The position numbers and the translations under genes were made by a program. Under the pieces are notes generated by a model. The model was not told the DNA's origin. It saw only the letters and a program-made list of their open reading frames with translations, and made no database searches. A stretch of DNA of 64,000 nucleotides from positions 1 through 64,000 of the forward strand of contig JAHHIJ010000022.1 in the NCBI GenBank assembly GCA_019358985.1, given 5' to 3'. This document shows, one piece after another, positions 14,218-43,588 of the stretch (the stretch's first letter is position 1; each line of letters opens with the position of its first letter). This DNA is from Tolypothrix brevis GSE-NOS-MK-07-07A. GTDB taxonomy: Bacteria; Cyanobacteriota; Cyanobacteriia; Cyanobacteriales; Nostocaceae.

Positions 14218-14220
14218 GGT

Positions 14221-18432: not shown

Positions 18433-18438
18433 TTGCTA

Positions 18439-18458
18439 ATATATGTATAGATACTTTT
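18439..18458 (+). repeat. 20-bp direct repeat, copy 1
   Basis: ATATATGTATAGATACTTTT is found exactly at 52649-52668 in the same orientation, 34.2 kb away. This copy lies in the terminase leader, six bases before the start codon. Confidence 0.6.
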
Positions 18459-18538: not shown

Positions 18539-19459
18539 TTAGATCAGGGTAAGCGCCAAAGTTTGATCAGGAAAAAAGTTTGCCTCTTGTAATGAATCTA
18601 AATCTTCTATCGTTAGATTTAATGAAGGCTTTTTATCTTGGTATGTATAAGCAATTAAACCAGAAATAACATTAACCATGAAATTACAAACGCTGCGGTG
18701 GCGAGTGTGTTGAATTTGGGAAATATTTTTTAATTGATCGTTAACTGTTTCTATCAGGGAACGCTTTCTTAATAAAATTTTATCGATTAAAGGCATGAAG
18801 CGATTTTTCATATTTTTTTTAATAGTTGTAATAAGTTGAAGATTTTGCTTTTGGAGAAGCTCAAATAATTTCTGGGAAATATATCCCCGGTCACCAAATA
18901 ATTTACCAAACAAATTTTTCGTCATTTTTGGTACAGGTTTACGGTCATCTACGTTAGCGGGGGTAATCATAAAAGATAAAATCTCTCCCAATTCATTAAT
19001 TATTAGATGTAACTTAAAACCGAAGTACCAGCCCAAAGAGCTCTTTCCCCAATTCGCTAAATTTTTGAACACTCGATTACGTTTAGCCCTTTGATTTATA
19101 CATATTTCAAGGGAAGTTGAATCAATAAAGTTGATGCCAGTGCTGTGTCCACAACGCAGATGGAGATACCAACACAAAGGTATTAAAGCAGTTTTCTCCA
19201 ATTCTACAAATCGGTTGTAACTTACTAGTTGAGGAAAATATTTTGGTAAAAAATTGCATACGTGCTTAGTATAATAATCCTTAAAGTTTCTATAAGATGA
19301 TTGATGAAAATAAATAATTATTGTCATGACTTCGCTTAAGCATAAATTAAATTTTTTGTGACGTTTTCGCTCACTGTTTGGCAATAGTTCTTGCTGCCAA
19401 GTTTTTTCAAACTCTTTACAAAAATCATCGATGTCACAAAATAATTTTTCTAATTCCAT
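18539..19459 (-). CDS. IS982-family transposase
   Basis: 306 residues, full length. DDE catalytic residues are visible in FIDSTSLEIC, LFGDRGYIS and KRSLIETVNDQLK. The segment WGKSSLGWYFGFKLHLIIN followed by TPANVDDR is diagnostic of the IS982 family. No frameshift, so it may be active. Its base composition is more AT-rich than the surrounding phage genes. Confidence 0.92.
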   Translation of the reverse strand: MELEKLFCDIDDFCKEFEKTWQQELLPNSERKRHKKFNLCLSEVMTIIIYFHQSSYRNFKDYYTKHVCNFLPKYFPQLVSYNRFVELEKTALIPLCWYLHLRCGHSTGINFIDSTSLEICINQRAKRNRVFKNLANWGKSSLGWYFGFKLHLIINELGEILSFMITPANVDDRKPVPKMTKNLFGKLFGDRGYISQKLFELLQKQNLQLITTIKKNMKNRFMPLIDKILLRKRSLIETVNDQLKNISQIQHTRHRSVCNFMVNVISGLIAYTYQDKKPSLNLTIEDLDSLQEANFFPDQTLALTLI

Positions 19460-19989: not shown

Positions 19990-20164
19990 AATGAATTCAT
20001 CACAAATTCATTTTCCCACTTTGAGTGCCTAAATATGCATAAATACATCATATTCTCATTTGTGGAAGCTTGTTGATATCTAGCTAAAGGAACGTGTGTT
20101 GCTTAATCGCTTACTCTGTCTAGTTTTCAGACTTTTCCTTACGTCGAATTCAGGTCCTTATAAC

Positions 20165-20566
20165 ATGACACCATCTGATTTACGAGCTATTTCCATCCAC
20201 GCACCTTTCGCCTACGCCATCTGTCTAGGGTTGAAGGATGAAGAGTACCGCACACAGCCAACTAAAATTAGGGGCTGGGTTTTGATACACAGCAGCAAAA
20301 ATAAGGCTTCTGACGAATACTTCACCGATTACGGGATTGATAGCGCTACAGCTAAACGCGGCGCGATTATTGGGGCTTGCAAACTAATTGACTGCATTGG
20401 CATTTCTGGAGACTATGCTTATTGTCTGGAACGTCCTCTTTTATTTCCGCAAGCCTTGGAAGGAGTCAGGGGTCAGCAAAGCATATTTTGGGGAGTCAGC
20501 AAGAGCGCACCAGAGCGCGACTACGCTTTTAAATTGGCTTGGGAGATGATTCAATGCTTGAGCTAA
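20165..20566 (+). CDS. ASCH-domain protein (paralogue of the 8720 protein)
   Basis: 133 residues, nearly all ASCH domain: LRAISIHAPFAYAICLG, RGWVLIHSS, KRGAIIGACKLIDC and QQSIFWGV align segment by segment with the N-terminus of the ASCH/SWIM protein at 8720. The start ATG 20165 lies 12 bases after the right inverted repeat of the IS982-family element, so the native promoter has probably been replaced; the frame upstream is IS sequence. ASCH domains are PUA-like and thought to bind RNA or modified nucleotides. Confidence 0.8.
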   Translation: MTPSDLRAISIHAPFAYAICLGLKDEEYRTQPTKIRGWVLIHSSKNKASDEYFTDYGIDSATAKRGAIIGACKLIDCIGISGDYAYCLERPLLFPQALEGVRGQQSIFWGVSKSAPERDYAFKLAWEMIQCLS

Positions 20567-20589
20567 AATGACTCTATTTAGAGGCAACT

Positions 20590-21117
20590 ATGGCGGGATT
20601 AAAAGATATTTATGCCCTATCTCTCAGGGCAGATGCAGCCATAAGGATGGCGATTGGAGATTTAACAATACAATTAGCTTTCATAGATTTGGAATATAAA
20701 GGTAAACTCATAATCCATGCTTGTTCGTATGCCTCCAGAGAAGAAGAAGACGAATGCATAAAACGGATTACACAATTAAGTTTTTCACCAGAAGAAGTAC
20801 CAACCAACAGTATTTTGGCTTGGGCGAAAATTAAAGAAATCAAAATTTACACGCCGCAAACTTTTGCTATTGATGCCAGGTTGCATGGTTATGGCATTGA
20901 TTTAAATCAGTTTCTTGCTACTGAAGGCTGGCAAGGCAAAACAGTGTACGGCTACGTATTGGAAGAACATCATTATCTCAGCCTACCGATTATGGGTGTT
21001 GGTAGCGAGTATCAGCATGGTGATTGGTGGCAAGCGGAAACACCGTTTGAGATTTTGTGTTTCAAACGGTGTTTTGATGCGGAATCCGTAGATATAGCCC
21101 AATCGGTGGGGTATTAA
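20590..21117 (+). CDS. Divergent ASCH-like protein
   Basis: 175 residues. The order IYALSLRADAAIRMAIG, YKGKLIIHAC, NSILAWAKIKEI and GYVLEEHHYLSLPIMGVG follows the ASCH fold (start strand, RG/KG-x-L-I-H-A strand, A-W-A-x-I strand, late strand), but it is more divergent than the gene 24 bases upstream. The middle includes a long insertion. Two ASCH-like genes in tandem suggest a shared function in nucleic-acid or base recognition. Confidence 0.6.
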   Translation: MAGLKDIYALSLRADAAIRMAIGDLTIQLAFIDLEYKGKLIIHACSYASREEEDECIKRITQLSFSPEEVPTNSILAWAKIKEIKIYTPQTFAIDARLHGYGIDLNQFLATEGWQGKTVYGYVLEEHHYLSLPIMGVGSEYQHGDWWQAETPFEILCFKRCFDAESVDIAQSVGY

Positions 21118-21581
21118 ATTCCTAACCGACGTGCAGCTCCTCTAGCTGCTGCCCGTTCGCCTCGAGTTGTACCTCTTCTAACTAATTCACGAATAGCATT
21201 GGCGCGGCGTGGCGAAACTGCGGCACCTCTGGCTACGGTTCTTGGTGCCGAACGAGAGCCGCGCCTACCACGCCCAGCGCCAGCAGAACGGGCATTATCA
21301 GCACCAGAACTTCCACCGCGACGGCGAGAACCGCCTCTTGCTACTAATCCACTACTAACGCCAATCCCTGGAAGATTTATGACTCGATTTCCCCCACCTA
21401 GTCCCGAAGTTTGGGAAGCGACTCTGGCAGCACGACGAGCTTGCCGCGCTGGAACACTAACACCTACTAATCCCCCACCTCTATTACGGGTTCCACCACG
21501 AGCAGTGCGTACCCTTCCTGTGGAAAGGTTCTGACCAAACCCGCCCCCCCCAGTCCTTCTGCCTCCACCTGATCTAGCCAT
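21114..21581 (-). CDS. Arg/Gly-rich basic protein
   Basis: 155 residues, dominated by Arg, Gly, Ala and Ser in tracts such as SGGGRRTGGGGFG and RGGSRRRGGSS, with almost no Asp, Glu or Lys and one more ordered C-terminal helix (RRANAIRELVRRG). This RGG-like make-up is typical of nucleic-acid condensing proteins. It may coat packaged DNA or RNA in the virion; this is inference. GC content is well above that of neighbours because of Arg and Gly codons. Convergent overlap of four bases with 20590. Confidence 0.65.
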   Translation of the reverse strand: MARSGGGRRTGGGGFGQNLSTGRVRTARGGTRNRGGGLVGVSVPARQARRAARVASQTSGLGGGNRVINLPGIGVSSGLVARGGSRRRGGSSGADNARSAGAGRGRRGSRSAPRTVARGAAVSPRRANAIRELVRRGTTRGERAAARGAARRLGI

Positions 21582-21624
21582 AATGGAATCCTAGTTTTGT
21601 AATGTTACATATTTAGGTTTCCCG

Positions 21625-21963
21625 ATGGTTCTTCTGTCAAGACATAAAACGCTTTATTACGAGTTGACTACGGACGATGGAGAAATAGTTGGCGGCGTTT
21701 TTGCTGTTGACCACCATCAATATATTGAAATTGTTGATTTGTTTGTAAATAAACAGTTTCAAGGGCAGAAATATGGGCGATCGCTCTTTAGGGATGTTTT
21801 AAATACCTACCCCTACAGCACAATTTGTCTGCGTTGTAAAGCTTTTGATGATGGGTTAAGTCAAGATGAATTAGCAGAGTGGTATCGGCGCTGGGATTTT
21901 GAAGATGGTTCGCCGTTTCATGAGGGGGATGGGTGGATGCATAAAAGTCAACGCCGAATTTAA
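21625..21963 (+). CDS. GNAT-family N-acetyltransferase
   Basis: 112 residues. The segment IEIVDLFVNKQFQGQKYGRS is GNAT motif A with the acetyl-CoA-binding loop (Q-x-x-G-x-x-x-G-R-S), followed by the helix LFRDVLNTYP and a C-terminal part DELAEWYRRWDFEDGSPF. Substrate unknown. It overlaps the convergent PAPS-reductase-like gene by four bases. Small phage GNAT proteins are often accessory. Confidence 0.7.
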   Translation: MVLLSRHKTLYYELTTDDGEIVGGVFAVDHHQYIEIVDLFVNKQFQGQKYGRSLFRDVLNTYPYSTICLRCKAFDDGLSQDELAEWYRRWDFEDGSPFHEGDGWMHKSQRRI

Positions 21964-22847
21964 GTTTTTTTTGTCATAAACCGGGCTTGAATTTCTGGAA
22001 ATAGTTCACACAATTCTGCCAACTGCACGGGGGCGTAAAATGCCAGCCATTTGTAATACTGCGAACATAATATTTCTGGCGTGCAGTACCAGAGAGTACG
22101 GGGAAAAGCTTTATTACCCTTTTTTTGGGGTATTTGGTGCATTGAATAAATAGGTGAAATCGGGGCATCTTCACTTACTAGTAATGCCCACACATCGATA
22201 TCCTTCCATTCACCTATGGGTAAAGCACGGACATAAGGAAGTGCATCTTTGTCATCTTGATCGTGAAACTGAAACATGCCTTCTCGACTTATTTCAAAAG
22301 CTCTCTCCATGCCTTCACCACCCCGATTACCCCACAAATACATTACATTTTCTTCACCTTCACCGTAGAGATGGTGAAATTGGTACAATGCTTCGTATGT
22401 AATACTTTCTGCCACTCCCCCCCAATCCCAAAAGTTGAGAAGCTTACCTTCTTTGGTGCGTAATCCGTAGGTATTGCCCCAGTCAAGATAAGAACGAATT
22501 ATCTGGGAAAATGGGCGGTCTGTGATGTAGTCTTCAAAGTAAAATTCACCTAAATATTCTTGCCATTCAATCTCTACTAAATAATGTTGGGGTAATTCTG
22601 CCCCATTTTTAATAATAAGATGCGTGTAATTGAGTTCGGCTAACTCCAAAATTAACGCAGTTGCCATTGAGTCTTTGCCATAGCCAAACCACAGCCCAGG
22701 CGGTATGTTTTGATTTACTCGCGGATCGGCATACCATTGCTGTACACGGGCTATTGTCTTGGCTTTTAGTTTTTTGAATTGGTCGGTTTTGGCGTGGGCA
22801 GCGGCGGCGGCATAGCGAGATGGGGGGAGTGCTTCAAATATTCTCAT
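21960..22847 (-). CDS. PAPS-reductase-like PP-loop protein (IbrA-like)
   Basis: 295 residues. The PP-loop ATP-binding motif is WFGYGKDS (residues 53-60), where the usual form is SGGKDS. Later segments (LYLWGNRGGEGMERAF-like, IGEWKDIDVWALL) fit the phage/plasmid PAPS-reductase-like family. In enterobacteria IbrA, of this family, works with the ParB-like IbrB to activate other genes; a ParB-like protein is in this same operon. It is the last of seven overlapping genes; ATG 22847 overlaps the upstream stop (ATGA). Confidence 0.8.
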   Translation of the reverse strand: MRIFEALPPSRYAAAAAHAKTDQFKKLKAKTIARVQQWYADPRVNQNIPPGLWFGYGKDSMATALILELAELNYTHLIIKNGAELPQHYLVEIEWQEYLGEFYFEDYITDRPFSQIIRSYLDWGNTYGLRTKEGKLLNFWDWGGVAESITYEALYQFHHLYGEGEENVMYLWGNRGGEGMERAFEISREGMFQFHDQDDKDALPYVRALPIGEWKDIDVWALLVSEDAPISPIYSMHQIPQKKGNKAFPRTLWYCTPEILCSQYYKWLAFYAPVQLAELCELFPEIQARFMTKKT

Positions 22848-23062
22848 GTTGGTTCGCCTTGCTTGCATCCAGACTCTTGGCTACTCCTGCCCTTTTTGGG
22901 CTTTGCGCGTGAGCAAAGCGTATCACCTCTGGCTTGACCAACACCATAAAAATATATACCACAATTTATACAGAATTTATCGCCTAAACCTGTGTCAGAC
23001 ATTTCCAAAGCATCAAGAACATCAGAGGAGCGATCGCACCGAGGGCATTTAGTCATTGACAT
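22844..23062 (-). CDS. Small zinc-ribbon protein
   Basis: 72 residues. Two CxxC pairs (KCPRCDR and FCINCG) about 25 residues apart form a zinc ribbon; a basic C-terminal tail follows. Overlaps the gene on each side. It may be a nucleic-acid binding or adaptor protein for the operon. ATG 23056 is a possible alternative start. Confidence 0.65.
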   Translation of the reverse strand: MSMTKCPRCDRSSDVLDALEMSDTGLGDKFCINCGIYFYGVGQARGDTLCSRAKPKKGRSSQESGCKQGEPT

Positions 23063-23306
23063 CCACTAGCTCAATCTCTGTTTCAAATGGTGGGGCGCAC
23101 GTTGGAAATTGCATCAATTCCCCAAAAATACCCATTAACTCCCAAAGTTGCCAAGTTGAATATCCCTGCTCATCCTCCTCAACAGGACGGCGAGGAAATA
23201 AGCTTTCATACTTCCCATGAATCTTTTTATGTCGCTCAACCAAGTGATTTCTCCCAACATCCGTTAGCTTTATTTTTACCTTTTGGTTAAGATTTATTGA
23301 TTCCAC
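23049..23306 (-). CDS. Conserved small phage protein
   Basis: 85 residues. The pattern KVKIKLTDVGRNHLVERHK near the N-terminus and EDEQGYSTWQLWELMGIFGE in the middle is one I have seen in many phage genomes, of unknown function. It overlaps both neighbours by 13-14 bases inside the seven-gene operon. Confidence 0.6.
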   Translation of the reverse strand: MESINLNQKVKIKLTDVGRNHLVERHKKIHGKYESLFPRRPVEEDEQGYSTWQLWELMGIFGELMQFPTCAPPFETEIELVDVND

Positions 23307-23881
23307 AAATCTCCTTCTAACGCATCTTCTTGGATTTCTTCTGAGATGGGTTCACTAGACACAGTTTCGTCTTCTTGCGCTTCATCAATTAATGCCTGTA
23401 ACTGTTCAATTGGTAAATCTGCATCCAATTTTAACTGCTGGATACACGATAAAGCTAATTCCCGTGCCACGCGATCGCCTGAATTTTTCAGCACTGCCAC
23501 GATAAATGCCTTGCAAATTTCCAACTGACGGCGAACATCACCCATCTTGCTAAGTCGCATTGCCCCGTCAGCTAACACAAGCGTACCTTGGAAAGCGCGT
23601 AGCATCCCGTCTAAATCAAGTCCCAGCAGCCGAAGTTTCAATTCGTCTACAAATTCAGCAGTAAGCTCGCCCTGCTCCACTAGCACCTCACAAGCTTGAA
23701 GTAAGGTTTTAGCCTCCTTCCCAAACTTACCCGCACCCTCGATTTGACTAATTACCCGACCGTGAGCCACATAAAAAGTCTCACGAATTATGGTTTCATA
23801 GTCGTAATTTTGAGAGTCAACAAAAGCATCACGCCACTTTCCCGTTAATTTTTTTCCATACAACGATTCATTATTGGTCAT
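23294..23881 (-). CDS. Helical protein in the sigma/ParB operon
   Basis: 195 residues, mostly helical with an acidic C-terminus (EAQEDETVSSEPISEEIQED). No domain recognised. It overlaps upstream (ATGA) and downstream genes. Size and acidity would allow a small terminase or a regulator, but I see no helix-turn-helix to support either. Confidence 0.55.
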   Translation of the reverse strand: MTNNESLYGKKLTGKWRDAFVDSQNYDYETIIRETFYVAHGRVISQIEGAGKFGKEAKTLLQACEVLVEQGELTAEFVDELKLRLLGLDLDGMLRAFQGTLVLADGAMRLSKMGDVRRQLEICKAFIVAVLKNSGDRVARELALSCIQQLKLDADLPIEQLQALIDEAQEDETVSSEPISEEIQEDALEGDLWNQ

Positions 23882-24147
23882 TCACTGCAACAGCCTTTAA
23901 CTACCTCAGCAATAACGCGGCTAACTTCTTGCATTGTCCGACTGCGACGACCATGTTTAAAGTTGTTTTGGCTACTTTTAGCTTTGCCTTCTTCTGTGCG
24001 TGGACCGGTTGATTTTTCCCAAGGTTTAGCAGCTTTAATCCGTTGTCTTGCAGCCTCAATAAATTCAGGTGATAAATTGCGGCGGTATTTTTTTATAGGG
24101 TATTTTTTGGAATTGAATTCGGCTAGGAACTTCTCAATATCAAACAT
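23878..24147 (-). CDS. Small basic protein with GPRTEEGKAKSSQN motif
   Basis: 89 residues from ATG 24147, overlapping the ParB-like gene by eight bases. The segment KPWEKSTGPRTEEGKAKSSQ followed by NNFKHG is conserved in small phage and cyanobacterial proteins I know only as hypothetical. Basic, probably nucleic-acid binding. Its stop overlaps the next start (ATGA). Confidence 0.6.
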   Translation of the reverse strand: MFDIEKFLAEFNSKKYPIKKYRRNLSPEFIEAARQRIKAAKPWEKSTGPRTEEGKAKSSQNNFKHGRRSRTMQEVSRVIAEVVKGCCSE

Positions 24148-25072
24148 TTTCTTGTTGATTAACAATAAATCTTACTGCTTCTAGAATAGTCTGCGATCGC
24201 CACTGTTGTGCTAGTCCTTCTCTAGGAATCTTGAGTTTATCGGCAGTCAATGCTATCAGCTCTTTAAATTCATCCAACACCTCTTTGTCCAAATACACCA
24301 AAAACCGCGTTTGTTCATCTGACGGGTTGTAACTCGCTGATTCAACTTCAGCCAATACCCCATCAAGAATTTCTGTAGTATCAACGGTTACTATTTCATT
24401 GTTACCCGTGGTGTAGTCGGTTGAGGAGCGTGCTTCAACATCAACCGTGTTGCCAGAGTAGTCGGTAGCATCAGGGCGTTCAAAATGCTCCTTATCTTGA
24501 TAATCAAATTCGTCTTCCGGTTCTTCCTCCTTCCTTACTAAAAAAGCTTGCATGAAATTGTTAGCAGTGGAGGTGTCCCAGCCTGCTGTTTTAATTTGGT
24601 GCTTGGGCATTTGTGCCAGAATCGCCGCAATTTTACCGGGGTCATCCCGTCCATCGTGGGAGGTGTTGTTAAGCCGCAGTAGTGCCGATTTTTGGCTGAG
24701 GGCATCAAGTGTTGCTGGGATAACAGGAGTTTTCGACCAATAGTCACTGCAAAATCGCCCTTGATGCTTGGTAGCTATTTTGTCTCTACCAGTACCTTTT
24801 ATCCAGCGATTCCACTCAGTTGTGAAGAAATCTTCATTTTGCCGTGACAGCCAATCAGCCCCGATAGTTCTGCCGTGACCTGAGATGAGGTATCCCAGAC
24901 TACCATCTAGGTTTTGCTGGATACTTGGGTAGGTTAACCAACCAAAGTCTAGCAAGCTTTCGCGTATCCAGGGTAAATCATGTTCTTCGGTATGTTCGCG
25001 GGGATTTTCGGGGTGGAATTTTTCGATGATGGTGTGGGTAGGAAGCCACATTACCTCATTCGCTTGGCTCAT
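24140..25072 (-). CDS. ParB-like protein (IbrB-like)
   Basis: 310 residues. The N-terminal ParB box is clear: HPENPREHTEEHD, IRESLLDFGWLTYPS and YLISGHGRTIGADWL (I-S-G-H-G-R). This places it with ParB/Srx-fold proteins, which bind CTP or act as nucleases. In IbrA/IbrB pairs the ParB-like member partners a PAPS-reductase-like protein, present five genes downstream. Its middle is acidic and Thr-rich; the C-terminal helix ends EGLAQQWRSQTILEAVRFI. Start overlaps the sigma gene stop (ATGA). Confidence 0.8.
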   Translation of the reverse strand: MSQANEVMWLPTHTIIEKFHPENPREHTEEHDLPWIRESLLDFGWLTYPSIQQNLDGSLGYLISGHGRTIGADWLSRQNEDFFTTEWNRWIKGTGRDKIATKHQGRFCSDYWSKTPVIPATLDALSQKSALLRLNNTSHDGRDDPGKIAAILAQMPKHQIKTAGWDTSTANNFMQAFLVRKEEEPEDEFDYQDKEHFERPDATDYSGNTVDVEARSSTDYTTGNNEIVTVDTTEILDGVLAEVESASYNPSDEQTRFLVYLDKEVLDEFKELIALTADKLKIPREGLAQQWRSQTILEAVRFIVNQQENV

Positions 25073-26190
25073 TTTTTCACCTCTGTTGCTACAGCTTCTT
25101 GACTACGCTGCATTGCTTCATTTAACTTAAGTAATGCTGTATCTAGCTGTGGAGACTGCGAACAGTTTTTAGTCAGCCATTCGGCAAGACAATTAAATCT
25201 ACCAATTAATTGCCATTGTTGTTGTACAGGTGTCATTAGTTTTCTCGAAATTTTTATACTCTTAATATCATAAGATTTCGCCCAAAGATAAATCGTGCTA
25301 TGGTCGATTCCAAGATAGGTTTCACACCAGTGCAGGCTTTTACCTTCCTTGATATGTAACAAAGCTTTATGTTTAATCTCTTCCCCATACCCACGCCTGC
25401 CTACTGGTAACGGATTCTCTACAAATTGATGACCACAGGATTTGCAGAGGTATGATTGTTTACCAGTACGTTTCCCGTTTTTGATGGTTTCATACTTGCC
25501 GCAACTAGGGCATTTCACGCGCCCTTGAGTAATTGACCGTAATAATTGTATAGATTCGGTTTCAATTCTTTTGATTTCGCTTAGTTTCAACGAATACTCA
25601 CGCGCAACTTCTTTTATGGGAATTACTTCTATGTATATACTACGGATAATGGCAGCGTGTTGTGGCGGGAGTTGAGACAGTAGCGGTTCCCACTCAAAAT
25701 CATCATCCACGGCATTATCAGTTAGCGACTGGGGTAACTCTAGCAAATGCTGTGTACACGCTACTGCTGACTCTTGGGCTAATTCTAATTCTATATCAAG
25801 TGCTGCTGCTGCCTGGATATAGGGTATACCTTCATTTTTAGAATGCCGATTAACTTTTTGATAAGTTTCTTGCAGCTTTCGGGGTATCTTCACCAAATGC
25901 CCTTTATCGCGTAGCCATTGTAGTATTCCACCTTGGATGAAAGGGATAGCCAAGGTGGAGAATTTGCGGTTTTTGGTAGGGTCGAACCGTTCCACTGCTT
26001 TGATTAATCCCAAAATACCAACTTGTACCAATTCTTCAAAGGGCAGCGTGCAGTAGTTTGTCATTTTGTGAGCAGTCATGTGGACTAAGCCCGTGTTTTG
26101 CTCAACTAAAATGTTGCGGAGACGGATATCTTTGTTTTGATGATACTCAAGAAATATTACTTCATTATCTAAATATGTCGTGCAAACCAT
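25069..26190 (-). CDS. Sigma-70-like factor fused to an IS1-type zinc ribbon and HTH
   Basis: 373 residues. Residues ~20-105 match sigma-70 region 2 (LVEQNTGLVHMTAHKM, FEELVQVGILGLIKAVERFD, RKFSTLAIPFIQGGILQWLR). Residues ~106-155 fit region 3 and ~165-220 fit region 4 (LPPQHAAIIRSIYIE, IKEVAREYSLKLSEIKRIE). A zinc ribbon follows with C227, C230, C249 and C252 (CPSCGKYETIKNGKRTGKQS), then an HTH at ~265-300 (LHWCETYLGIDHSTIYLWAK). This second half looks like InsA of IS1. It heads the operon and is a candidate late-gene activator. Confidence 0.8.
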   Translation of the reverse strand: MVCTTYLDNEVIFLEYHQNKDIRLRNILVEQNTGLVHMTAHKMTNYCTLPFEELVQVGILGLIKAVERFDPTKNRKFSTLAIPFIQGGILQWLRDKGHLVKIPRKLQETYQKVNRHSKNEGIPYIQAAAALDIELELAQESAVACTQHLLELPQSLTDNAVDDDFEWEPLLSQLPPQHAAIIRSIYIEVIPIKEVAREYSLKLSEIKRIETESIQLLRSITQGRVKCPSCGKYETIKNGKRTGKQSYLCKSCGHQFVENPLPVGRRGYGEEIKHKALLHIKEGKSLHWCETYLGIDHSTIYLWAKSYDIKSIKISRKLMTPVQQQWQLIGRFNCLAEWLTKNCSQSPQLDTALLKLNEAMQRSQEAVATEVKK

Positions 26191-26207
26191 TTCACCCTAA
26201 TATCCGA

Positions 26208-26576
26208 ATGACTTTCACAATAAGCGTAGAGGGGCAATTCACCACTGACCCGGAAACTGGAAATCCGGTACAGGTGACAGTCCCTTACCAAGTAGAAGCA
26301 TGGTTGCAGGGTAATAACAGCGTAAAACCTGAACCTGGAAGTAACCCTAACATGGTTATGCTACAGGGATATTCCGTAAAACCACGGATTTTACCAAACG
26401 AAATAATCTATAAACAATCTGAAGCAGTTGCAGTTTACATAGACCCCTTAACTGGGAATCAGCACCAAGGGAAATTTACACTCAAGCCAAAGTTTGACAG
26501 TAACCGTCCTCGTGTTGCTAAAGCATTGGCAAGAGGGATTGGAACCCAGATGGAGGGGACATTTGAATGGAGTTAA
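26208..26576 (+). CDS. Phage structural protein, connector-like
   Basis: 122 residues from ATG 26208; the frame extends upstream into the sigma gene but ATG 26208 leaves a 17-bp gap to that divergent start. Beta-rich (MTFTISVEGQFTTDPETGNP, then VPYQVEAWLQG), with KFTLKPKFDSNRPRVAKALA near the end. I do not recognise the family. The size, beta character and genes downstream (27218, 27540) fit the head-tail connector or neck region. Its end overlaps nblA. Confidence 0.55.
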   Translation: MTFTISVEGQFTTDPETGNPVQVTVPYQVEAWLQGNNSVKPEPGSNPNMVMLQGYSVKPRILPNEIIYKQSEAVAVYIDPLTGNQHQGKFTLKPKFDSNRPRVAKALARGIGTQMEGTFEWS

Positions 26577-26746
26577 GCCGAGAGCAAGAATTTAAGATTT
26601 GTAGTTTCAATCAGCAAGTCAAATATTTGACCGAAATTGAAGTTAAACAAAAATTGGTGGAGATGTACCAAAGGATGATTATTCTACAAAATCATTATCA
26701 GCGGGAAATCAAAAAAACGTGGTTGATTAATGATGTGGGAAAATAA
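26567..26746 (+). CDS. nblA: NblA-family phycobilisome degradation protein
   Basis: 59 residues. LSREQEFKICSFNQQVK, then VEMYQRMIILQNHYQ and a C-terminal KKTWLIND, matches the whole NblA pattern (LSxEQxFxxRSFxxQV, LVxLYxQMMxxxxxY, LKxxWG). NblA binds phycobilisomes and Clp protease to trigger phycobilisome breakdown. GAGGGG lies eight bases before the ATG. It overlaps the gene upstream by ten bases and sits in a phage structural run. Some freshwater cyanophages, such as Ma-LMM01, carry nblA, so a phage role is plausible. Confidence 0.85.
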   Translation: MELSREQEFKICSFNQQVKYLTEIEVKQKLVEMYQRMIILQNHYQREIKKTWLINDVGK

Positions 26747-26768
26747 TTTTGTCCTACCCTGTCCTACT

Positions 26769-27254
26769 ATGTCTACAAGTATGGATATTAACCAAGTCGC
26801 TGAATATCTGGGTGTTTCCCACAAAACAGTTCGCCGTTACGTCAAGGCTGGAAAGCTTAAGGTAAAGTATGTTGAGGGTAAGGGAGTATACGATCAAGCC
26901 GAGGTAGAAGCGTTAAAACTTGACAAGCAAACACCCGTACACCGTGTTTTCCCATCGGTGGAGGAGGACATTCAATTGTCCCAGTTTGTCCCACCAGAAA
27001 TTGAGGGTCGAATTATACATCGACAGCAAGGGTTTGAAGAATATTATACTCTGCGATATTTGGAAATAAAGTTAACGCTGACTATAGAAGAGTGCGCGAT
27101 GATATCAGGTTTTTCTAAGGCTGGGTTAAGGAGTGCGGTAAAATCGGGAACATTAAAAGCAATAAAATATGGTGGTCGCTGGAGAGTGCGATCGCGTGAT
27201 TTAGAGGAATACGTAAAATGCCTATTTGGAGATCGTGGACACCCCCACAACTGA
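26769..27254 (+). CDS. Protein with two excisionase-type HTH domains
   Basis: 161 residues from ATG 26769; ATG 26730 is an alternative start. First HTH_17 domain is DINQVAEYLGVSHKTVRRYV, then KAGKLKVKYVEGKGVYDQAE. A second, weaker copy is near the C-terminus (IEECAMISGFSKAGLRSAV, then KSGTLKAIKYGGRWRVRSRD). Each resembles the winged HTH of MerR or Xis proteins. Two such domains in one small protein could bind paired sites. Immediately downstream of nblA, so it may regulate this cluster or act in excision. Confidence 0.75.
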   Translation: MSTSMDINQVAEYLGVSHKTVRRYVKAGKLKVKYVEGKGVYDQAEVEALKLDKQTPVHRVFPSVEEDIQLSQFVPPEIEGRIIHRQQGFEEYYTLRYLEIKLTLTIEECAMISGFSKAGLRSAVKSGTLKAIKYGGRWRVRSRDLEEYVKCLFGDRGHPHN

Positions 27255-27508
27255 CTATCACCACCGCAACGTACCGATGGACAGCACCCTACGCCTATGA
27301 TGTTCATGAGCGTCAGGGAAATCGCTGGACTGATAGAGGGTTATCGGGGAGTAATTTACCTGCTGAGTTTGCCACAAATTACCAAACTACCCACAATCTA
27401 GATTCGGCATTTACCATGACTGCTAATTACCTCAATCTACGTTTTTTACAAGAGTGTCCGGTTCGTAGTGGTCAGTTGAAAGCGTCGCAATCGATAACAT
27501 TTTCTTAG
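27218..27508 (+). CDS. Connector-like phage protein
   Basis: 96 residues, overlapping the upstream gene by 37 bases; GAGGAA upstream of ATG. The sequence PIWRSWTPPQLTITTATYRW, then APYAYDVHE, and a closing RSGQLKASQSI recalls HK97 gp10-like connector proteins (PYAxxVHE and a late RSGxL). I infer a neck or tail-completion role. Confidence 0.6.
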   Translation: MPIWRSWTPPQLTITTATYRWTAPYAYDVHERQGNRWTDRGLSGSNLPAEFATNYQTTHNLDSAFTMTANYLNLRFLQECPVRSGQLKASQSITFS

Positions 27509-27539
27509 CTTGAACAATTGTTCCTAGAAGCAGGAAAAT

Positions 27540-27950
27540 ATGCCCCAACACATCCACACCACCGCCCAACTCCGAAGCGCTCTTGCCGATTTACTTTTCG
27601 CCGAACTAGGGAATTTTGCCAACAATCAACCCGCCATCTGGGTTGAACCACCATCTACACCCAAAGGTGGCGCGAGTGGTGGTGTGGAGGTGAGTATTTC
27701 TCGGTTCAAGAATGTTTCTAGTAGTTCGCTGATGCTAAACAATCAACAAGAACAGCGCTACGAATGGATTGTAGCGGTGAAATTATATGAGCGCACCCCT
27801 GAAGCTTACAGCAAATTCAACAGCGCTATTGAAAAAATGCGGCGTTACTTCCCCAGGAGGCGAGAGACGGTATCACCTTACAGTGAAGAGGAGAATTTGA
27901 TTGCTACGTTTCGACTGAGTGAATTGGAAGTTATCAATAGTTACGTTTAA
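27540..27950 (+). CDS. Tail-terminator-like phage protein
   Basis: 136 residues with AGGA six bases before the start. Begins with a helical HIHTTAQLRSALADLLFAEL, then a central beta region with YEWIVAVKLYER, and ends in RLSELEVINSYV. Small proteins of this size and order after connector genes are usually tail terminators. Family not confirmed. Confidence 0.5.
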   Translation: MPQHIHTTAQLRSALADLLFAELGNFANNQPAIWVEPPSTPKGGASGGVEVSISRFKNVSSSSLMLNNQQEQRYEWIVAVKLYERTPEAYSKFNSAIEKMRRYFPRRRETVSPYSEEENLIATFRLSELEVINSYV

Positions 27951-28040
27951 CTTCTTGCTGTTATTCTCAATAAATAAGTCTGCGTTGCCTAACTATATCA
28001 GGATAAGCGCAGATTTCATTGAAAAATCTTTCAACATCTA

Positions 28041-28069
28041 TTGACATTTATTATTAATTATGCTATAAT
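28041..28069 (+). promoter_or_regulatory. Perfect sigma-70 consensus promoter
   Basis: TTGACA at 28041-28046, 17-bp spacer, TATAAT at 28064-28069. The leader that follows has a GGGGG/CCCCC hairpin at about 28078-28103 and leads to the gene at 28123. This is the best-matching promoter seen in the window. Confidence 0.8.
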
Positions 28070-28122
28070 AGAGAAAAGGGGGAAAATCTCTTCAATCCCC
28101 CCCTCACTACAGACTTTAAATC

Positions 28123-28341
28123 ATGGCGATTCAACATCTTCTCACTTTGGCTATCGAAGCTATCTTCTATTGCTTCACCGCTTTCATGGCAATAGACATC
28201 TTCATCCGCTACACTGCTCCATTTTCAGTCCCGCCATTGCCTAAGAAGACAAAAAACCCCAAACCCCAGAGTCTGGACGAGCTTGAAAACGACGGGATTT
28301 ATAATTTCGGACTCGCCTTGGCGCTCTCAGACCCCGACTAA
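28123..28341 (+). CDS. Small membrane protein
   Basis: 72 residues. One transmembrane segment (LLTLAIEAIFYCFTAFMAI) followed by a Lys/Pro-rich stretch (PPLPKKTKNPKP) and an acidic tail. Function unknown. It has its own perfect consensus promoter and is followed by a 24-bp palindrome that could be its terminator, so it is an independent unit that the host polymerase would express strongly. This fits a lysogenic accessory gene. Confidence 0.6.
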   Translation: MAIQHLLTLAIEAIFYCFTAFMAIDIFIRYTAPFSVPPLPKKTKNPKPQSLDELENDGIYNFGLALALSDPD

Positions 28342-28784
28342 CGCGGACTTTGGGGGCAGCGCGATCGCGCTGCCCCGGCAATATCAAACAATCAACGCTA
28401 TACTCTGCACACTTCCGACCACTACACTCCTTAGTTGGCATCACGCCTGGGGCAATGCGATCGCGATTATGTAATCCCAAATGGAATCTACGAAAAGCGC
28501 TAGCGCAACAAGGTAGCTGGGACAGATCGAAAAATGCTAAGACCCGCACCCCGCTAGAGTTTGTCACCACGGCGATGGTTCCGGAGTCGCTGGTTCCTTT
28601 GGAAAAGTCGCCCTCCTCAATAATCAAAGAAAGGTTGGCGACGGTTCGATCCTTGGCAAATATATCTATAGGAGCAGAACCCAAAAGGCTTATTAGGGTT
28701 GCGTTGAGTGTCGAGGAGGGCGATCGCTAATTAAGTGAATCTGCGATCGCCTACCTGAAAATTGCTGTAATCAATACTGGATAC
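28342..28784. other. Stretch without a convincing gene
   Basis: Begins with the palindrome at 28353-28376. ORFs exist on both strands (plus 28350-28730, minus 28241-28684), but neither has a ribosome site or a known family. The 3' half of the plus frame (LEFVTTAMVPESLVPLEK, SLANISIGAEPKRLI) looks the more protein-like and could be a decayed gene. Several HIP1 sites occur. Confidence 0.4.
28353..28376. terminator. 24-bp perfect palindrome containing HIP1
   Basis: GGGGCAGCGCGA joined directly to its inverse complement, with HIP1 (GCGATCGC) at the centre. It starts 11 bases after the stop of the small membrane protein. It may act as a terminator or transcript stabiliser; no T-run follows. Confidence 0.45.
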
Positions 28785-29057
28785 TTATTCCCCACTTGCT
28801 AGCCTGACAAACATTTCTTCAAAACTTAATCCTTCTTGTGATGCTTGAAAAGCTATCAACTCGCACCATTCAGGAGTAAGTCGGCGTATTGATGCCGACA
28901 ACAAACTGGCTGAATCAGCTGCCATACCTCTTTTTTTAACGGCAGCAGCAGCTTTCAAAACCCAGTAGTCCATATCTGCTAACTTAGCTGTTTGCACTCG
29001 TGTATCGTCTATTTTTGGCAGCCTAGCAGCTATTTCATCCCAGTTTGGAACTTCCAT
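28785..29057 (-). CDS. Small conserved cyanobacterial protein
   Basis: 90 residues. Contains DYWVLKAAAAVKKRGMAADS and a closing LSFEEMFVRLASGE. The pattern looks coding and cyanobacterial, but I know no function. Monocistronic on minus and divergent from the accessory operon that starts at 29113 or 29186. Confidence 0.55.
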   Translation of the reverse strand: MEVPNWDEIAARLPKIDDTRVQTAKLADMDYWVLKAAAAVKKRGMAADSASLLSASIRRLTPEWCELIAFQASQEGLSFEEMFVRLASGE

Positions 29058-29112
29058 ATTACTTTCTCATAGCTTTTTATCTGCCGTTATATTACTATAA
29101 TCCTAGAAAAAG

Positions 29113-29199
29113 ATGCGCCCAGTGCTGACGACACCGGACGACTTCCCCACCATCAGAAACTACCTGACAGAGGAGCAATTCAAGTATGACTCCAATTGA
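29113..29199 (+). CDS. Possible 28-residue leader peptide
   Basis: Short ORF starting MRPVLTTPDDFPTIRNY and running 14 bases into the next gene. Its last codons contain the GAGGAG ribosome site of the gene at 29186. Composition is protein-like. TATAAT lies at 29096-29101, just upstream. It may be a coupled leader ORF, or coincidence. Confidence 0.35.
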   Translation: MRPVLTTPDDFPTIRNYLTEEQFKYDSN

Positions 29200-29401
29200 G
29201 CTTCAAATAAAGTGGAATTTATCAAACACAGAGCTTGCGATCGCAATTCGCAAGACAGAAGAAACTATCAAGGCGTACAAGGTTAGGAAGTCAGCGCGAT
29301 CGCACCGCAACCCGCCACAAAGCACTATTTTGTTGTGTGAATTACTAGATAAAGAATGGGAAGCAGCAGGCACGGCACAGATACGTCTAGTTGCCGCATA
29401 G
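29186..29401 (+). CDS. Small HTH-like protein
   Basis: 71 residues, good ribosome site GAGGAG. Helical pattern LQIKWNLSNTELAIAIRKT, then ETIKAYKVRKSARSHRNPP resembles a compact helix-turn-helix followed by a helix (LLCELLDKEWEAAG). Likely a DNA-binding regulator of the accessory genes downstream. A terminator at 29429 follows. Confidence 0.55.
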   Translation: MTPIELQIKWNLSNTELAIAIRKTEETIKAYKVRKSARSHRNPPQSTILLCELLDKEWEAAGTAQIRLVAA

Positions 29402-29428
29402 GTACAAAGTAACCGACAAAGTAGATTG

Positions 29429-29443
29429 CCCGCACCGTGCGGG
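29429..29443 (+). terminator. Intrinsic terminator after the HTH-like gene
   Basis: CCCGCA-CCG-TGCGGG hairpin followed by TTTCTTATT. Confidence 0.7.
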
Positions 29444-29481
29444 TTTCTTATTGTGATAGTGCAACCACAAAAACTTGCACT

Positions 29482-29709
29482 ATGGACAGCACAACGCATT
29501 TACAGACACTTGAAAACTCCCTTAATCCCCGCGACCCTCAGACAGTCGCCCTCAAAAACCTCAAAGCGGTAAACAACCGATTGATTGATGCGATCGCAGA
29601 AGCTCACGAATCATTGTTAAAATCCGCCGGCTCATCCAGCGAACCAGACAAAATCTTGAGTGCTTGCAGTATCCTTGCCCAGGCTTTGGCAGAAGTAGCA
29701 AAGGTTTAG
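29482..29709 (+). CDS. Small helical protein of unknown function
   Basis: 75 residues from ATG 29482. Fully helical by eye: NLKAVNNRLIDAIAEAHESL and ILSACSILAQALAEVAKV. No family recognised. Lies after the terminator at 29429, so it may have its own promoter. Confidence 0.45.
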   Translation: MDSTTHLQTLENSLNPRDPQTVALKNLKAVNNRLIDAIAEAHESLLKSAGSSSEPDKILSACSILAQALAEVAKV

Positions 29710-29945
29710 TTTTGTTTCAATTGTTGCAAAAGCTGCCTCATGTATGCATTGTGAAAAGCGATCGCATTCAGTGCAGACAACGAAGCATCAATACTTCCAA
29801 AACTGCCTAAACCCAGCACGATAGTGCAATGCGATCGCACTCTCACCTATTGCTTCAAAGCGATCGCACTTCACAGATTGCAACTTCCTTCAAACCCGTT
29901 GCAGCAAGCATTGTAAAAATCGAGTTCAAAAACAGAGAAATTTTT

Positions 29946-30344
29946 ATGGCGAGAGAGGGGGAAACCCACAGAAAAATCTTTGAATCGCAGTTTGGGAAAC
30001 CAGTTAGAGCGCAAGCCTGGAATGCGATCGCACTCCAGATGAAAGAAGCTCAAATGCCTTTCACTGTCGAAAATTTAAAGTTTGTTGCCAAATGCAAAAG
30101 GATTGCCAATTACCACAGAGTCAAGTCACCGGTTCTCAAAAATGTCATCACAGCAGCTGCCCAATTGGGAGAGGAGGCATACGGCTTTCAAATTCTCCAA
30201 TGCGTCTTCCGACTTAAACCTGGGCTGACGCGAGACAAGTTTTATCGAGCATTCCGCACCTCTGGTATCCCCTTCAAACAGTCCTTTCAGTTCAAAATCC
30301 CTGAGCTAGGGGAAGTCCTTTACAAAATATTCGTGGAAAGATGA
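29946..30344 (+). CDS. Unknown protein, first gene of the ATPase module
   Basis: 132 residues from ATG 29946; the frame upstream crosses several HIP1 sites and is unlikely to be coding. Begins MAREGETHRKIFESQFGKPV, basic and mixed alpha/beta. Its end overlaps the next start as ATGA. The ~235 bases upstream hold HIP1 sites and no clear gene. No family recognised. Confidence 0.5.
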   Translation: MAREGETHRKIFESQFGKPVRAQAWNAIALQMKEAQMPFTVENLKFVAKCKRIANYHRVKSPVLKNVITAAAQLGEEAYGFQILQCVFRLKPGLTRDKFYRAFRTSGIPFKQSFQFKIPELGEVLYKIFVER

Positions 30345-30943
30345 ACCAAAATAAAGTCAAAGTTATTCAGTCGCAGTTGAAGCGTCGCGGGACGAGCATG
30401 TCCTTGGCAGATATCAGGGACGCTCTAGCACTGTCCTACGGTGAGGATGTAGAAATCGACGACGAAATTGTTGCCGCAACTGTAGAAAAATTAATTGGCA
30501 GTGCAGTGGTTGAATCAAGTAGCGCCATGACTGTGGAAGAAAAACCAGAATTAATTACAACCAATATAGAAAAAGAAAAAATAGTTATTTCGGTAGCTCA
30601 ACAAATTAATGTGTCGTTGCCGATTGAAGCAATCAAGCAAATAGCATCAAGTATTGATTGGGCAATTGATTCTCGTTCCGCCTTAATGAAAGAACTGCGG
30701 AGTGCAATTCAAGCTTGGGCAGATCATAAATTAGCAGAAGCTCAAAAAATAAGTGATGAAATTCGCGAAGAAACTAATCAATTATTTGTAGATGTTTCTC
30801 AAACAATTAATAATGCGATCGCTTCTGACAACGAATTGTTTGAAATCAAAGCTATGGAAATGAAGAGCGTAGTAGACCAAGCTGTTGAAACTTTTCGGAC
30901 TTCCCATAAAGAAATCCTTGATATTTTCAAGATTCCAGCTTGA
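30341..30943 (+). CDS. Coiled-coil protein of the ATPase module
   Basis: 200 residues, coupled to the gene upstream (ATGA). N-terminal ~55 residues look like a winged-helix-type unit (IQSQLKRRGTSMSLADIRDA, then IVAATVEKLI). The C-terminal ~110 residues are helical and coiled-coil (ISDEIREETNQLFVDVSQTI). No family recognised. Similar genes occur on cyanobacterial plasmids in my memory. Confidence 0.5.
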   Translation: MNQNKVKVIQSQLKRRGTSMSLADIRDALALSYGEDVEIDDEIVAATVEKLIGSAVVESSSAMTVEEKPELITTNIEKEKIVISVAQQINVSLPIEAIKQIASSIDWAIDSRSALMKELRSAIQAWADHKLAEAQKISDEIREETNQLFVDVSQTINNAIASDNELFEIKAMEMKSVVDQAVETFRTSHKEILDIFKIPA

Positions 30944-31038
30944 AGAAATTGAATCTTACACAAAGTCACACAAGTTGAACTTGCTATTGCTTGTGCTTGC
31001 ATTTCCACTTCTACTATTAACTTTCCAAAATATTTTGT

Positions 31039-31692
31039 ATGGCAACCCCCAAACACATCAAAACCCGTATCAACACCAACACCAAAGCAGGTAGCGCTGC
31101 TGCTAGAGTAACCGGATTTAGTCCACAAGAATTAGAGCAAATATTGAAAGGCGATCGCGTCGCCATCAAAAAGCTGCGTGACTGCTATTACGAGTCAAGA
31201 ATGGCTGAATTAACTTTGCCGATGATGGAAGAAACTATTCCCAAAAGCATTGAGGTTAATAAACGGTGGAATCAGCTATTAGGAAAGTACGTTGCCCAAG
31301 GTAGCGCGGCTGATTTAGCTATTGAATCATCTGCGACCCAGGCATCTTTTGCAAACATGAAATATGTTCATGGGACAAAAGAGCTAAAAGAAGGATTTCA
31401 AGCGCAAGTGGAAATTGAGCGGGAACGGCATAGCAACCAAATTGATTATCAACGAGCTAAATTCTACGTTGATATGGTTTTTCAAAATGTTGATGCTGAC
31501 ACTAGGCAATTTGAGCAGGGGAAACGAGTAGCAGTAGCCCAACTAGTGGCAGATGAAGCTTATGAAATGGAATCAACTGTGGCAGTTTGGGAACACGGAA
31601 CCCTTGACCATATCAAGCGCAAGAACTATGAATCGCATCTAACCAAGCCAGGAAACATCTGGCGCAGAATGAAAAATGCTTTGGGGATTTAA
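31039..31692 (+). CDS. Helical protein of the ATPase module
   Basis: 217 residues. Basic N-terminus (MATPKHIKTRINTNTKAGS), then a mostly helical body rich in Glu, Gln and Ala. No domain recognised. The 95 bases before it include a short hydrophobic ORF (begins MNLLLLVLAFPLLLLTF from a TTG) that overlaps its start; I cannot tell whether that is made. Confidence 0.5.
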   Translation: MATPKHIKTRINTNTKAGSAAARVTGFSPQELEQILKGDRVAIKKLRDCYYESRMAELTLPMMEETIPKSIEVNKRWNQLLGKYVAQGSAADLAIESSATQASFANMKYVHGTKELKEGFQAQVEIERERHSNQIDYQRAKFYVDMVFQNVDADTRQFEQGKRVAVAQLVADEAYEMESTVAVWEHGTLDHIKRKNYESHLTKPGNIWRRMKNALGI

Positions 31693-31694
31693 CT

Positions 31695-31976
31695 TTGACA
31701 ACTTTTTGCGCCTTCTTCATCTACTGTCTTTCATTAAATCAATCTGTTAATTCCGTCCAACCAGTAACGGTTCAACCCGTTACTTCCCAAAAAAAACCAG
31801 CACCTATTCAGCCTAAACGCCCTAACGCACAAACATGTAAAAAGTTTCAATACGATCCGAATCATAAGTATTTAGCTACAATTTCTTCCGCAGAACTTCA
31901 AAAGGAATGGGAGTTGTATCAAGAGTGGGAAAAATCTGGATGCGGCTTTAACGATTATTATGAAAACCGAATTTGA
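31695..31976 (+). CDS. Small protein with hydrophobic N-terminus
   Basis: 93 residues from TTG 31695, two bases after the upstream stop. N-terminal hydrophobic helix (FCAFFIYCLSL) may be a signal or anchor. A Pro/Gln/Val-rich linker with repeats (QPVTVQPVTSQKKPAPIQPK) leads to a helical C-terminal domain (SSAELQKEWELYQEWEKSG). Overlaps the HNH-like gene by 17 bases. Confidence 0.5.
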   Translation: MTTFCAFFIYCLSLNQSVNSVQPVTVQPVTSQKKPAPIQPKRPNAQTCKKFQYDPNHKYLATISSAELQKEWELYQEWEKSGCGFNDYYENRI

Positions 31977-32409
31977 GTATGCATCTAATTGGCAAAATAC
32001 TCGCAGAAAAACTTTAAAACTGATGCCAAGATGTACCTGTAATCCACTGCACAAAGCATCAATTGTTCACCACTTAAAATACAAGCGATCGCTCTTACGT
32101 CGGTTATTTGGTTGTTTCTTGTTACATAATCCTTTTCAAGCTTCGGTATCAGGCTACGAGATTCTTGGTTGGGACATCGTACCCGTGTGCAGCAGCTGTC
32201 ACGAAAATAGTTATGGTCGAAGTCTCAATCACAAGAGTGTCCATTACACAAAAGTTTGGAAACAGAAAGGCGGATTAAATAATCACAACACATTCTTTTT
32301 TACGTGGAAGATGCGGTTTCTATTTTGGATTTGGATTAGTTTATTAATGCCATTAAGATGTTGCCATCAATTGATGAAATCGTTGAAGAAAGAGAAGAAA
32401 GCGAGGTAG
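31960..32409 (+). CDS. HNH-like protein with C-terminal membrane segment
   Basis: 149 residues. A Cys/His arrangement (CTCNPLHKASIVHHLKYKRS and PVCSSCHEN) resembles the HNH/zinc-bound beta-beta-alpha-metal fold; the HH pair and CxxCH fit. A Trp/Phe-rich hydrophobic stretch (MRFLFWIWISLLMPL) near the C-terminus may anchor it. Overlaps the next gene by 52 bases. The related protein at 34496 lacks this anchor. Confidence 0.5.
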   Translation: MKTEFEYASNWQNTRRKTLKLMPRCTCNPLHKASIVHHLKYKRSLLRRLFGCFLLHNPFQASVSGYEILGWDIVPVCSSCHENSYGRSLNHKSVHYTKVWKQKGGLNNHNTFFFTWKMRFLFWIWISLLMPLRCCHQLMKSLKKEKKAR

Positions 32410-32936
32410 AGAAAGTCTATACTGACTACCTCGAAAGACTGGAAATGTCGCGCTTATCAACTGAAGCTGCATTTGATTTTATTCGCAATTGTTTAATTTC
32501 GCTAACAGCAAATACCGCGAATACAGCAATGATCTACGTCTGTATCGACTTTGGAATGCACTGGTTATCAGCCTCTATGTTTGGTTTCGGATTGGGCTTG
32601 ATTCCGGTGGCATATCACCTCAATAATGCTGGTATTGATTTAAGTAGTGAATTTAAAGTGAAAAAGATTGGTGCGTTAATAGTAGCTGGCGGCTGCCTAG
32701 TCGCTGCATTTAATGTTAGTTATCAGTCAGGGGGAGAAAAGCGAACTCTAATTGATTTTACGAATAAAGGATTGATGGAATCTTCGCGAGAAGTTGCCAA
32801 CTATGAAGTCAAATTTAGCCCGTGGGATGGGGTTAATTTTTGGTTTTCGTATCATTCCATGCAAGCGGTAGGGAGTGGGTTAATCCCTGCTTTATTGGGT
32901 GCGATCGCAATGAAATATTTAAGAGGCAGGCGATAA
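32358..32936 (+). CDS. Multi-pass membrane protein
   Basis: 192 residues. After an acidic cytoplasmic N-terminus (EEREESEVEKVYTDYLERLE) there are about three to four hydrophobic segments (NTAMIYVCIDFGMHWLSASM, FGFGLGLIPVAYHL, GALIVAGGCLVAAFNVSY, GSGLIPALLGAIAM). Stop is directly followed by the GTG of the ATPase gene, so the two are co-translated. Probably the membrane partner of that ATPase. Confidence 0.6.
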   Translation: MLPSIDEIVEEREESEVEKVYTDYLERLEMSRLSTEAAFDFIRNCLISLTANTANTAMIYVCIDFGMHWLSASMFGFGLGLIPVAYHLNNAGIDLSSEFKVKKIGALIVAGGCLVAAFNVSYQSGGEKRTLIDFTNKGLMESSREVANYEVKFSPWDGVNFWFSYHSMQAVGSGLIPALLGAIAMKYLRGRR

Positions 32937-34625: not shown

Positions 34626-34966
34626 ATTATTCAGTGCGGTACGGCAATAATTATAGTCGGGAGTGTGCTGTAGCTTGGGAAACTCATAAAGATTTGGGGT
34701 CTATTTGTGTATGCTGTTTAAAAGCTAAAGCAACTCAGTTGCATCATACGTCTTATGGGGGAAACCCTCTAAACAGGCTATATGAAAACTGGACACCTGT
34801 TTGTGTTAAATGTCATCGAAACTTATGTCATGATAAAACAAAATACTGGGTTCTTGATAAAAAGAATCCAGTATGGGGAAATTGCAATACTGAAGAGTTC
34901 AAAAAAAGACTTAAGCTAGGGTTGGATCTTTTACGGTGTCTTTATTTAAATTCCTTTATTAAATAA
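34496..34966 (+). CDS. HNH endonuclease-like protein
   Basis: 156 residues from ATG 34496, GAGGA upstream; a start at 34475 is possible. It overlaps the ATPase gene by 130 bases in another frame. Basic N-terminus (RRTRKATKSPGNKRA). HNH core: CVCCLKAKATQLHHTSYGG, then ENWTPVCVKCHRNLCHD, with two CxxC pairs, a histidine pair and a final histidine. Likely a DNA nuclease. Confidence 0.7.
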   Translation: MGRRTRKATKSPGNKRALGGNDGTSPKRQASGNAARISKKPELDYSVRYGNNYSRECAVAWETHKDLGSICVCCLKAKATQLHHTSYGGNPLNRLYENWTPVCVKCHRNLCHDKTKYWVLDKKNPVWGNCNTEEFKKRLKLGLDLLRCLYLNSFIK

Positions 34967-35058
34967 AAACGCTTTCATTTTTCAGGAATAAAAGCGCAGA
35001 GAATCAACTTAAAATGTTGCTTAAATCTTAACTATTTTCCCCAGAATTGTCAATAAAA

Positions 35059-35090
35059 AAGCACCTTTCGGTTAACGACAAAGGGTGCTT
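35059..35090 (-). terminator. Intrinsic terminator for the 35149 gene
   Basis: On minus, AAGCACCCTTT pairs with AAAGGTGCTT around a ~10-base loop, followed by six T. Lies 59 bases past the end of the minus-strand gene. Confidence 0.65.
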
Positions 35091-35148
35091 AATACGTGAA
35101 AAAAAACTAAATCCATTGCTTTAACCCTAACCTTCAAAACTCCAATCG

Positions 35149-35992: not shown

Positions 35993-36000
35993 CTTACTCC

Positions 36001-40948: not shown

Positions 40949-40952
40949 TTTG

Positions 40953-43475: not shown

Positions 43476-43547
43476 ATTTGTACACATTTCTCGTGTTTGG
43501 ATTAACGGGAACAATACCAAAAAGTTCTATTGGTTGAGTAACTTCTC

Positions 43548-43582: not shown

Positions 43583-43588
43583 ATAAAT

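Follow-up and report, generated by a model that had tools for sequence, protein, structure and literature searches.

The gene studied here lies in a cyanobacterial prophage within a 64-kb window (the window being the whole stretch of DNA that was analysed). It is the first of seven minus-strand ORFs, the neighbours of which overlap by 4 to 26 bases; its place at the head of a seven-gene operon is thus as originally predicted. The operon is composed as follows:

25069..26190, minus strand: fusion gene of 373 aa, encoding a SigF-like sigma factor with an InsA-type ribbon and helix-turn-helix (HTH) and a predicted helical hairpin
24140..25072, minus strand: ParB-like gene, second of the operon (phrog_620, 1.1e-11), overlapping the fusion gene by 4 nt
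21960..24165, minus strand: operon genes 3 to 7, with products of 95, 195, 85, 72 and 302 aa

Read on the minus strand from 26190 to 25069, the fusion gene runs for 373 aa without a stop, and the plus strand of the same interval is crowded with stops. The region upstream of it lies inside a divergent gene. Among operon genes 3 to 7, one match to phrog_2302 was found at 1e-5, and the 302-aa product is weakly PAPS-reductase-like (PF01507 just under the cut-off). The fusion protein consists of a sigma part (residues 1-222), a ribbon and HTH (223-311) and an extension (312-373).

Elsewhere in the prophage, ORFs at 918-2903 read as an IS200/IS605-type pair (TnpA, TnpB), and the ORF at 18539-19459 reads as a DDE-type transposase. 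A 2127-aa protein (46223-52606) is tape-measure-like and carries apparent M23-peptidase-like and beta-lactamase/transpeptidase-like stretches.

A Sigma Factor Related to SigF

The first ~220 residues had been read as sigma regions 2 to 4. Two of these regions could be placed:

25900..26109, minus strand: sigma region 2 (residues 28-97; Pfam PF04542)
25537..25683, minus strand: sigma region 4 (residues 170-218; Pfam PF04545)

Both matches exceed the curated cut-offs (Sigma70_r2, 5.3e-13 and 49 bits vs. 24; Sigma70_r4, 1.6e-6 and 27.9 bits vs. 24.1), and each region is matched by all 13 aligned family members (Pfam, E <= 1). For region 3, which some sigma-70 groups lack, no match was found: Sigma70_r3 is absent among the 25 Pfam families listed at E <= 1 for the protein of the window. 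An alignment with host SigF-type sigmas has three gaps (6, 15 and 7 columns) in the stretch separating region 2 from region 4.

By profile, the nearest sigma relatives are those of the cyanobacterial SigF (SigB-SigF-SigG) type. The NCBIfam SigF model NF005644 matches the protein at 2.7e-41 with 141.9 bits, and the sigma70-ECF superfamily model exceeds its cut-off (73.8 vs. 42.9 bits). The fusion differs from SigF in being shorter between regions 2 and 4, and it stays below the SigF cut-off of 261 bits. Bacterial sigma factors rank first in a PDB sequence search, and sigma factors also rank first when the AlphaFold model of the whole protein (pLDDT 77.4, pTM 0.31) is searched with Foldseek. The arrangement of the domains relative to one another is unreliable in the predicted models (pTM 0.31 and 0.38).

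One host SigF-type sigma matches the fusion at 46% over residues 14-145. The host SigF-type sigmas, however, lack the ribbon-HTH tail and form a separate group from the fused sigmas in the tree. Relatives without a tail also occur in phages: two Cylindrospermopsis phage sigmas (OQ625504, MH636380) and the loci L139-L142 and L144, at 37-39% over residues 8-220, stop directly after region 4. Fused and tail-less phage sigmas cluster together, apart from the host sigmas (support 97/95). Within this cluster, the tree asks for two changes in the presence or absence of the tail; a single gain, or a gain followed by a loss, may both be possible histories.

A Transposase-Like Ribbon and Helix-Turn-Helix

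Beyond the sigma part, the original prediction saw a four-Cys ribbon and an HTH like those of IS1 InsA. This holds for residues 223-311; the last 62 residues are unlike InsA.

25405..25524, minus strand: zinc ribbon of the InsA/IS1595 type (residues 223-262; Cys 227, 230, 249 and 252)
25258..25404, minus strand: InsA-type HTH (residues 263-311; NF033558, hhalign, helices of the model)

The ribbon is recognized by the NCBIfam model IS1_IS1595_Zn (NF050000) with 47.2 bits, above the cut-off of 28, and the IS1 transposase model NF033558 matches residues 227-311 at 1.5e-13 without reaching its full-length cut-off of 100 bits. Pfam Zn_ribbon_InsA (18.2 bits, cut-off 26.1) and the Pfam HTH models matched the protein below their cut-offs only. 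An alignment of profiles with hhalign, for which nine phage tails were set against seven IS1 proteins (the copy of the window excluded from the IS1 set), scored 99.5% (E 5.4e-23) over 80 columns spanning ribbon and HTH. The sigma part against InsA, as a negative control, scored 0.6%. Helices are present in the HTH stretch of the predicted models, and Foldseek with the tail model found no match at E <= 0.001.

The likeness is to the N-terminal half of an IS1 transposase, over the 80 columns of four-Cys ribbon and HTH. The phage module differs in sitting C-terminally on a sigma factor, and no catalytic half was found: a tblastn search with that half of a single IS1 protein gave only one match, at E 0.57, in the fusion loci and in positions 20000-32000 of the window. 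The term "transposase-derived" is right insofar as InsA is the nearest known relative. An IS1 origin long ago is possible, and tail and InsA may also share descent without any IS1 insertion.

InsA-type ends were encountered in other cyanobacterial proteins as well. In the host genome of the window, an ECF-type sigma (L059; G000:C57, 32704-33675, minus strand) ends in an InsA-type ribbon and HTH, not followed by the catalytic half; the residues LHNGG ahead of its InsA start resemble the stretch before two other InsA copies. Its family has matches in 25 of 388 genomes, and among 29 loci examined only L059 has the tail. Like the phage fusion, it joins a sigma to an InsA-type tail, but the sigma is of another type. 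In other cyanobacterial genomes, the loci L049, L050 and L044 encode proteins with InsA-type ends (in L044 the ribbon alone), which read as a C5 DNA methyltransferase, a TetR-like and a GntR-like regulator, and several short ORFs consist of an InsA module without the catalytic half. Proteins in two viral contigs (L096, L097) and in Nostoc NMS2 (L116) have an IS1-like zinc ribbon at their N-terminus or close to it; they read as a metallophosphoesterase, a nuclease-like and a NYN-like protein.

The C-Terminal Extension

25072..25257, minus strand: C-terminal extension (residues 312-373), conserved in the family and predicted to form a two-helix hairpin

The extension is matched by phrog_1454 in all 10 members tested (best 3.4e-5). 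The single match of this family in T4 is vs.4, named as the anti-CBASS gene acb2 in an excerpt of PMC12657218. At E <= 0.5, this family is also hit in 5 of the 14 genomes used as controls. The Acb2/Tad1 model PF24729, which places T4 vs.4 above its cut-off, gave nothing at E <= 10 in any of eight fusion phage records. The hhalign comparison of the extension with Acb2 reached 6.8%, the structural Z against Acb2 is no better than against unrelated hairpins, and Acb2/Tad1 is absent among the 50 best Foldseek matches of the tail model. Nothing convincing was found with Pfam on seven extensions alone, and the best matches in a PDB profile search are designed helical proteins. That a captured transposase module replaces or overrides -35 recognition and that the hairpin is at the same time a relative of Acb2/Tad1 is rated as very improbable. 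If both parts were true, the protein would be a sigma factor with a built-in activator, and phage transcription could be tuned by a nucleotide signal of the host.

Conservation of the Joined Gene

A scan of genome contigs yielded a single homologue, in a prophage of a Nostoc sp. NMS2 MAG (L106), 79% identical across 373 residues; the same fusion is hence present in another cyanobacterial prophage. Blocks of alignment between the two prophages extend from ~3,000 to 53,400 and are interrupted by a large gap near 28,000-37,000. In IMG/VR, a scan by sigma alignment returned 156 relatives, 80 of which were kept. Sixteen of these are full-length fusions (L124, which is the phage of the window itself, L125-L138 and L143), and no same-strand tail was found at the remaining 64. 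The conserved fusion of a sigma with an InsA-like module, and its assignment to phages, are both borne out by these copies.

The window, the Nostoc copy and the 16 loci (L124, among the latter, being the phage of the window) make a set of 18 sequences; these form 12 clusters at 99.9%, 10 at 95%, 9 at 90% and 5 at 70% identity. The four cysteines and tryptophans 288, 303 and 326 are kept in all 18. In the sample of the class (388 genomes), a full-length fusion occurs in just one, the genome of the window itself, and four further matches at E <= 1e-30 are confined to the sigma part. In the sample of the order (also 388), two genomes have it: again that of the window, and one at the contig place of the Nostoc copy that is probably the Nostoc genome itself; for the remaining 36 of the 38 matching genomes, the match falls inside residues 3-221. 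A fusion widespread in host genomes is ruled out by these two samples. No place in the phage records (130 matching) or the plasmid records (171 matching) covers 80% of the fusion protein. The motif HIP1 (GCGATCGC) is a cyanobacterial mark, and it occurs on the fusion contigs at 0.18-2.12 per kb, while 0.005-0.008 are expected from base composition; the hosts of these phages are therefore probably cyanobacteria.

The ParB-like, 95-aa and 195-aa genes also follow the fusion in L106, L130, L131 and L133-L137, and the PAPS-reductase-like gene is shared by L106, L131 and L133-L137 (the L130 locus ends before that point). The first three are absent from the available stretches of L125-L129, L132, L138 and L143. 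G390 resembles the window in its portal (77%), terminase (71%) and capsid (63%). G391 has a fused sigma (45%) and no match to the terminase and capsid of the window, so the fusion is not confined to a single phage background.

Purifying selection acts on the joined gene, tail included. Between the window and the Nostoc copy, dN/dS is 0.131 overall, 0.119 for the sigma part, 0.052 for the ribbon, 0.073 for the whole tail and 0.315 for the extension, dS being saturated in the HTH. The fusion would be an artefact if a frameshift had joined two genes near residue 220, or if an IS1-type insertion had recently lengthened the frame of a normal sigma. InsA-type tails do terminate unrelated cyanobacterial proteins, and the residues ahead of the InsA start in the host ECF sigma resemble a translated IS end. 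The joined frame is, however, open and full-length in all 18 copies, 12 of them distinct at 99.9%, which rules out a frameshift or assembly artefact; a recent IS1 insertion is ruled out by the conservation and the missing catalytic half. An artefactual fusion has thus next to no probability.

Five of the seven pairs tried were computable (dN/dS, same order throughout):

HTH: 0.58, 0.77, 0.11, 0.22, 0.41
Ribbon: 0.05, 0.02, 0.06, 0.12, 0.05
Sigma part: 0.08, 0.27, 0.04, 0.09, 0.08

The HTH exceeds both ribbon and sigma part in all five, which would fit a specificity element; the ratios are suggestive, as sequences are shared between pairs, the stretches are short and dS is only 0.034 for the value of 0.77. 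Reshuffling has affected the end of the tail: L131 and L134 share 97% identity in the sigma part and 63% in the extension, whereas L131 and L137 share 87% in the extension.

Within the tail, constraint is strongest on the ribbon (0.02-0.12 over the five pairs). This would suit a tail acting as a protein-binding arm, in which ribbon and hairpin contact RNA polymerase or a partner so as to recruit or regulate it, with promoter choice left to regions 2 and 4. In many transcription factors, zinc ribbons act as protein-binding modules, and the predicted C-terminal hairpin is in keeping with such an arm. However, the HTH is conserved in the family and aligns with the DNA-binding part of InsA, and this reading is considered rather unlikely.

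Candidate Promoter and Target Sites

No specific target site for the tail was established by upstream alignments, gapped-dyad counts or element searches. Alignments of upstream regions from the window and Nostoc prophages revealed no informative promoter motif. Gapped-dyad counting over six phages led to TTGACA-N17-TACTA elements, which recur chiefly in two of them (the IMG/VR contigs G393 and G396); their frequency in the window and Nostoc sequences does not exceed that in shuffled sequence. TTGACA-N17-TACTAT with an inter-box dyad is found at 21493, 22137, 22602, 30619, 31116 and 31544 in G393 and at 28475, 28918, 29419, 30212, 38292 and 38986 in G396, on both sides of the fusion gene; it looks like an ordinary, early-type promoter with an operator.

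A second element was seen in the window and the Nostoc prophage:

18436..18455, minus strand: AT-rich 20-bp element close to GTATCTATACATATATTAG, placed immediately ahead of the terminase gene

Further copies lie at 40898-40917 (plus strand) and 52646-52665 (minus strand) of the window, and at 47703, 59079, 83497 and 86105 of the Nostoc prophage contig. One copy immediately precedes the terminase gene in both phages. Of the three sites in the window, one is inside a gene and one between two convergent gene ends, and the element is absent from the other four of the six phages. Because its consensus was built from those same repeats, the element fares too well against the two shuffles made per sequence; as a candidate regulatory site, it is a lead only. 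Tracts of short GGAAGAA / CTTCCTT repeats were also noticed in the window (6382-6419, 14211-14315, 40943-41051, 41707-41758, 42145-42179 and 43547-43584). Several directly precede phage gene starts, and they are mostly missing from the aligned Nostoc counterparts.

No special site was recognized upstream of the fusion gene, within the divergent gene. This bears on the reading of the tail as an InsA-like repressor, which would return the sigma to its own promoter or block IS1-type elements and would not broaden promoter choice. InsA itself is described in an excerpt of PMC12428005 as repressing the promoter from which it is expressed and as competing for the IS1 ends. Against such a role stand the lack of a site and the tail being joined to the sigma in 18 of 18 copies, and we regard it as quite improbable.

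Possible Role in Phage Transcription

The reading that we prefer, with a probability of roughly 58%, is that a phage sigma-70-family factor equipped with an InsA-type module and a hairpin steers the host RNA polymerase to phage promoters. The conservation of the joined form indicates that it is probably a working way of directing the host enzyme to viral genes. Binding to the host polymerase and to the promoter would fall to regions 2 and 4, as in other sigma factors. Binding of InsA to the IS1 ends requires its zinc finger and HTH (excerpt of PMC12428005); by analogy, the tail should bind DNA, presumably near the promoter. An additional, phage-specific contact would thereby be given to a short sigma, such that the holoenzyme would prefer phage promoters, and the hairpin may be used for pairing or regulation. 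In this way the tail may select promoters. A point against this is that phage sigmas of the 225-residue type cope without a tail. These related sigmas are at the same time a natural comparison, which makes the role of the tail directly testable. Given its place at the head of an operon and near structural genes, the fusion gene most likely drives transcription of middle or late phage genes; this timing is our guess.

Comparison with Known Systems

Sigma factors encoded by phages are in themselves well known, from cyanophages (PMC10452541) as well as from jumbo phages (PMC7824862). What is new is the conserved InsA-tailed variant. The original prediction knew of no described sigma factor with this C-terminal module, and none was found in the titles and abstract openings of the open-licence literature. 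Sigma factors are usually distinguished by regions 2 to 4; an extra DNA-binding module in the same chain, conserved in a family, would be a new way to set promoter choice, and possibly a part for transcription programming in cyanobacteria. It would parallel, in bacterial viruses, the transcription factors born by transposase capture. A comparable prophage regulator built from a transposon protein is TldR, a phage repressor derived from TnpB (excerpt of PMC13418256). TldR, however, is an RNA-guided repressor, whereas the fusion protein is a sigma factor.
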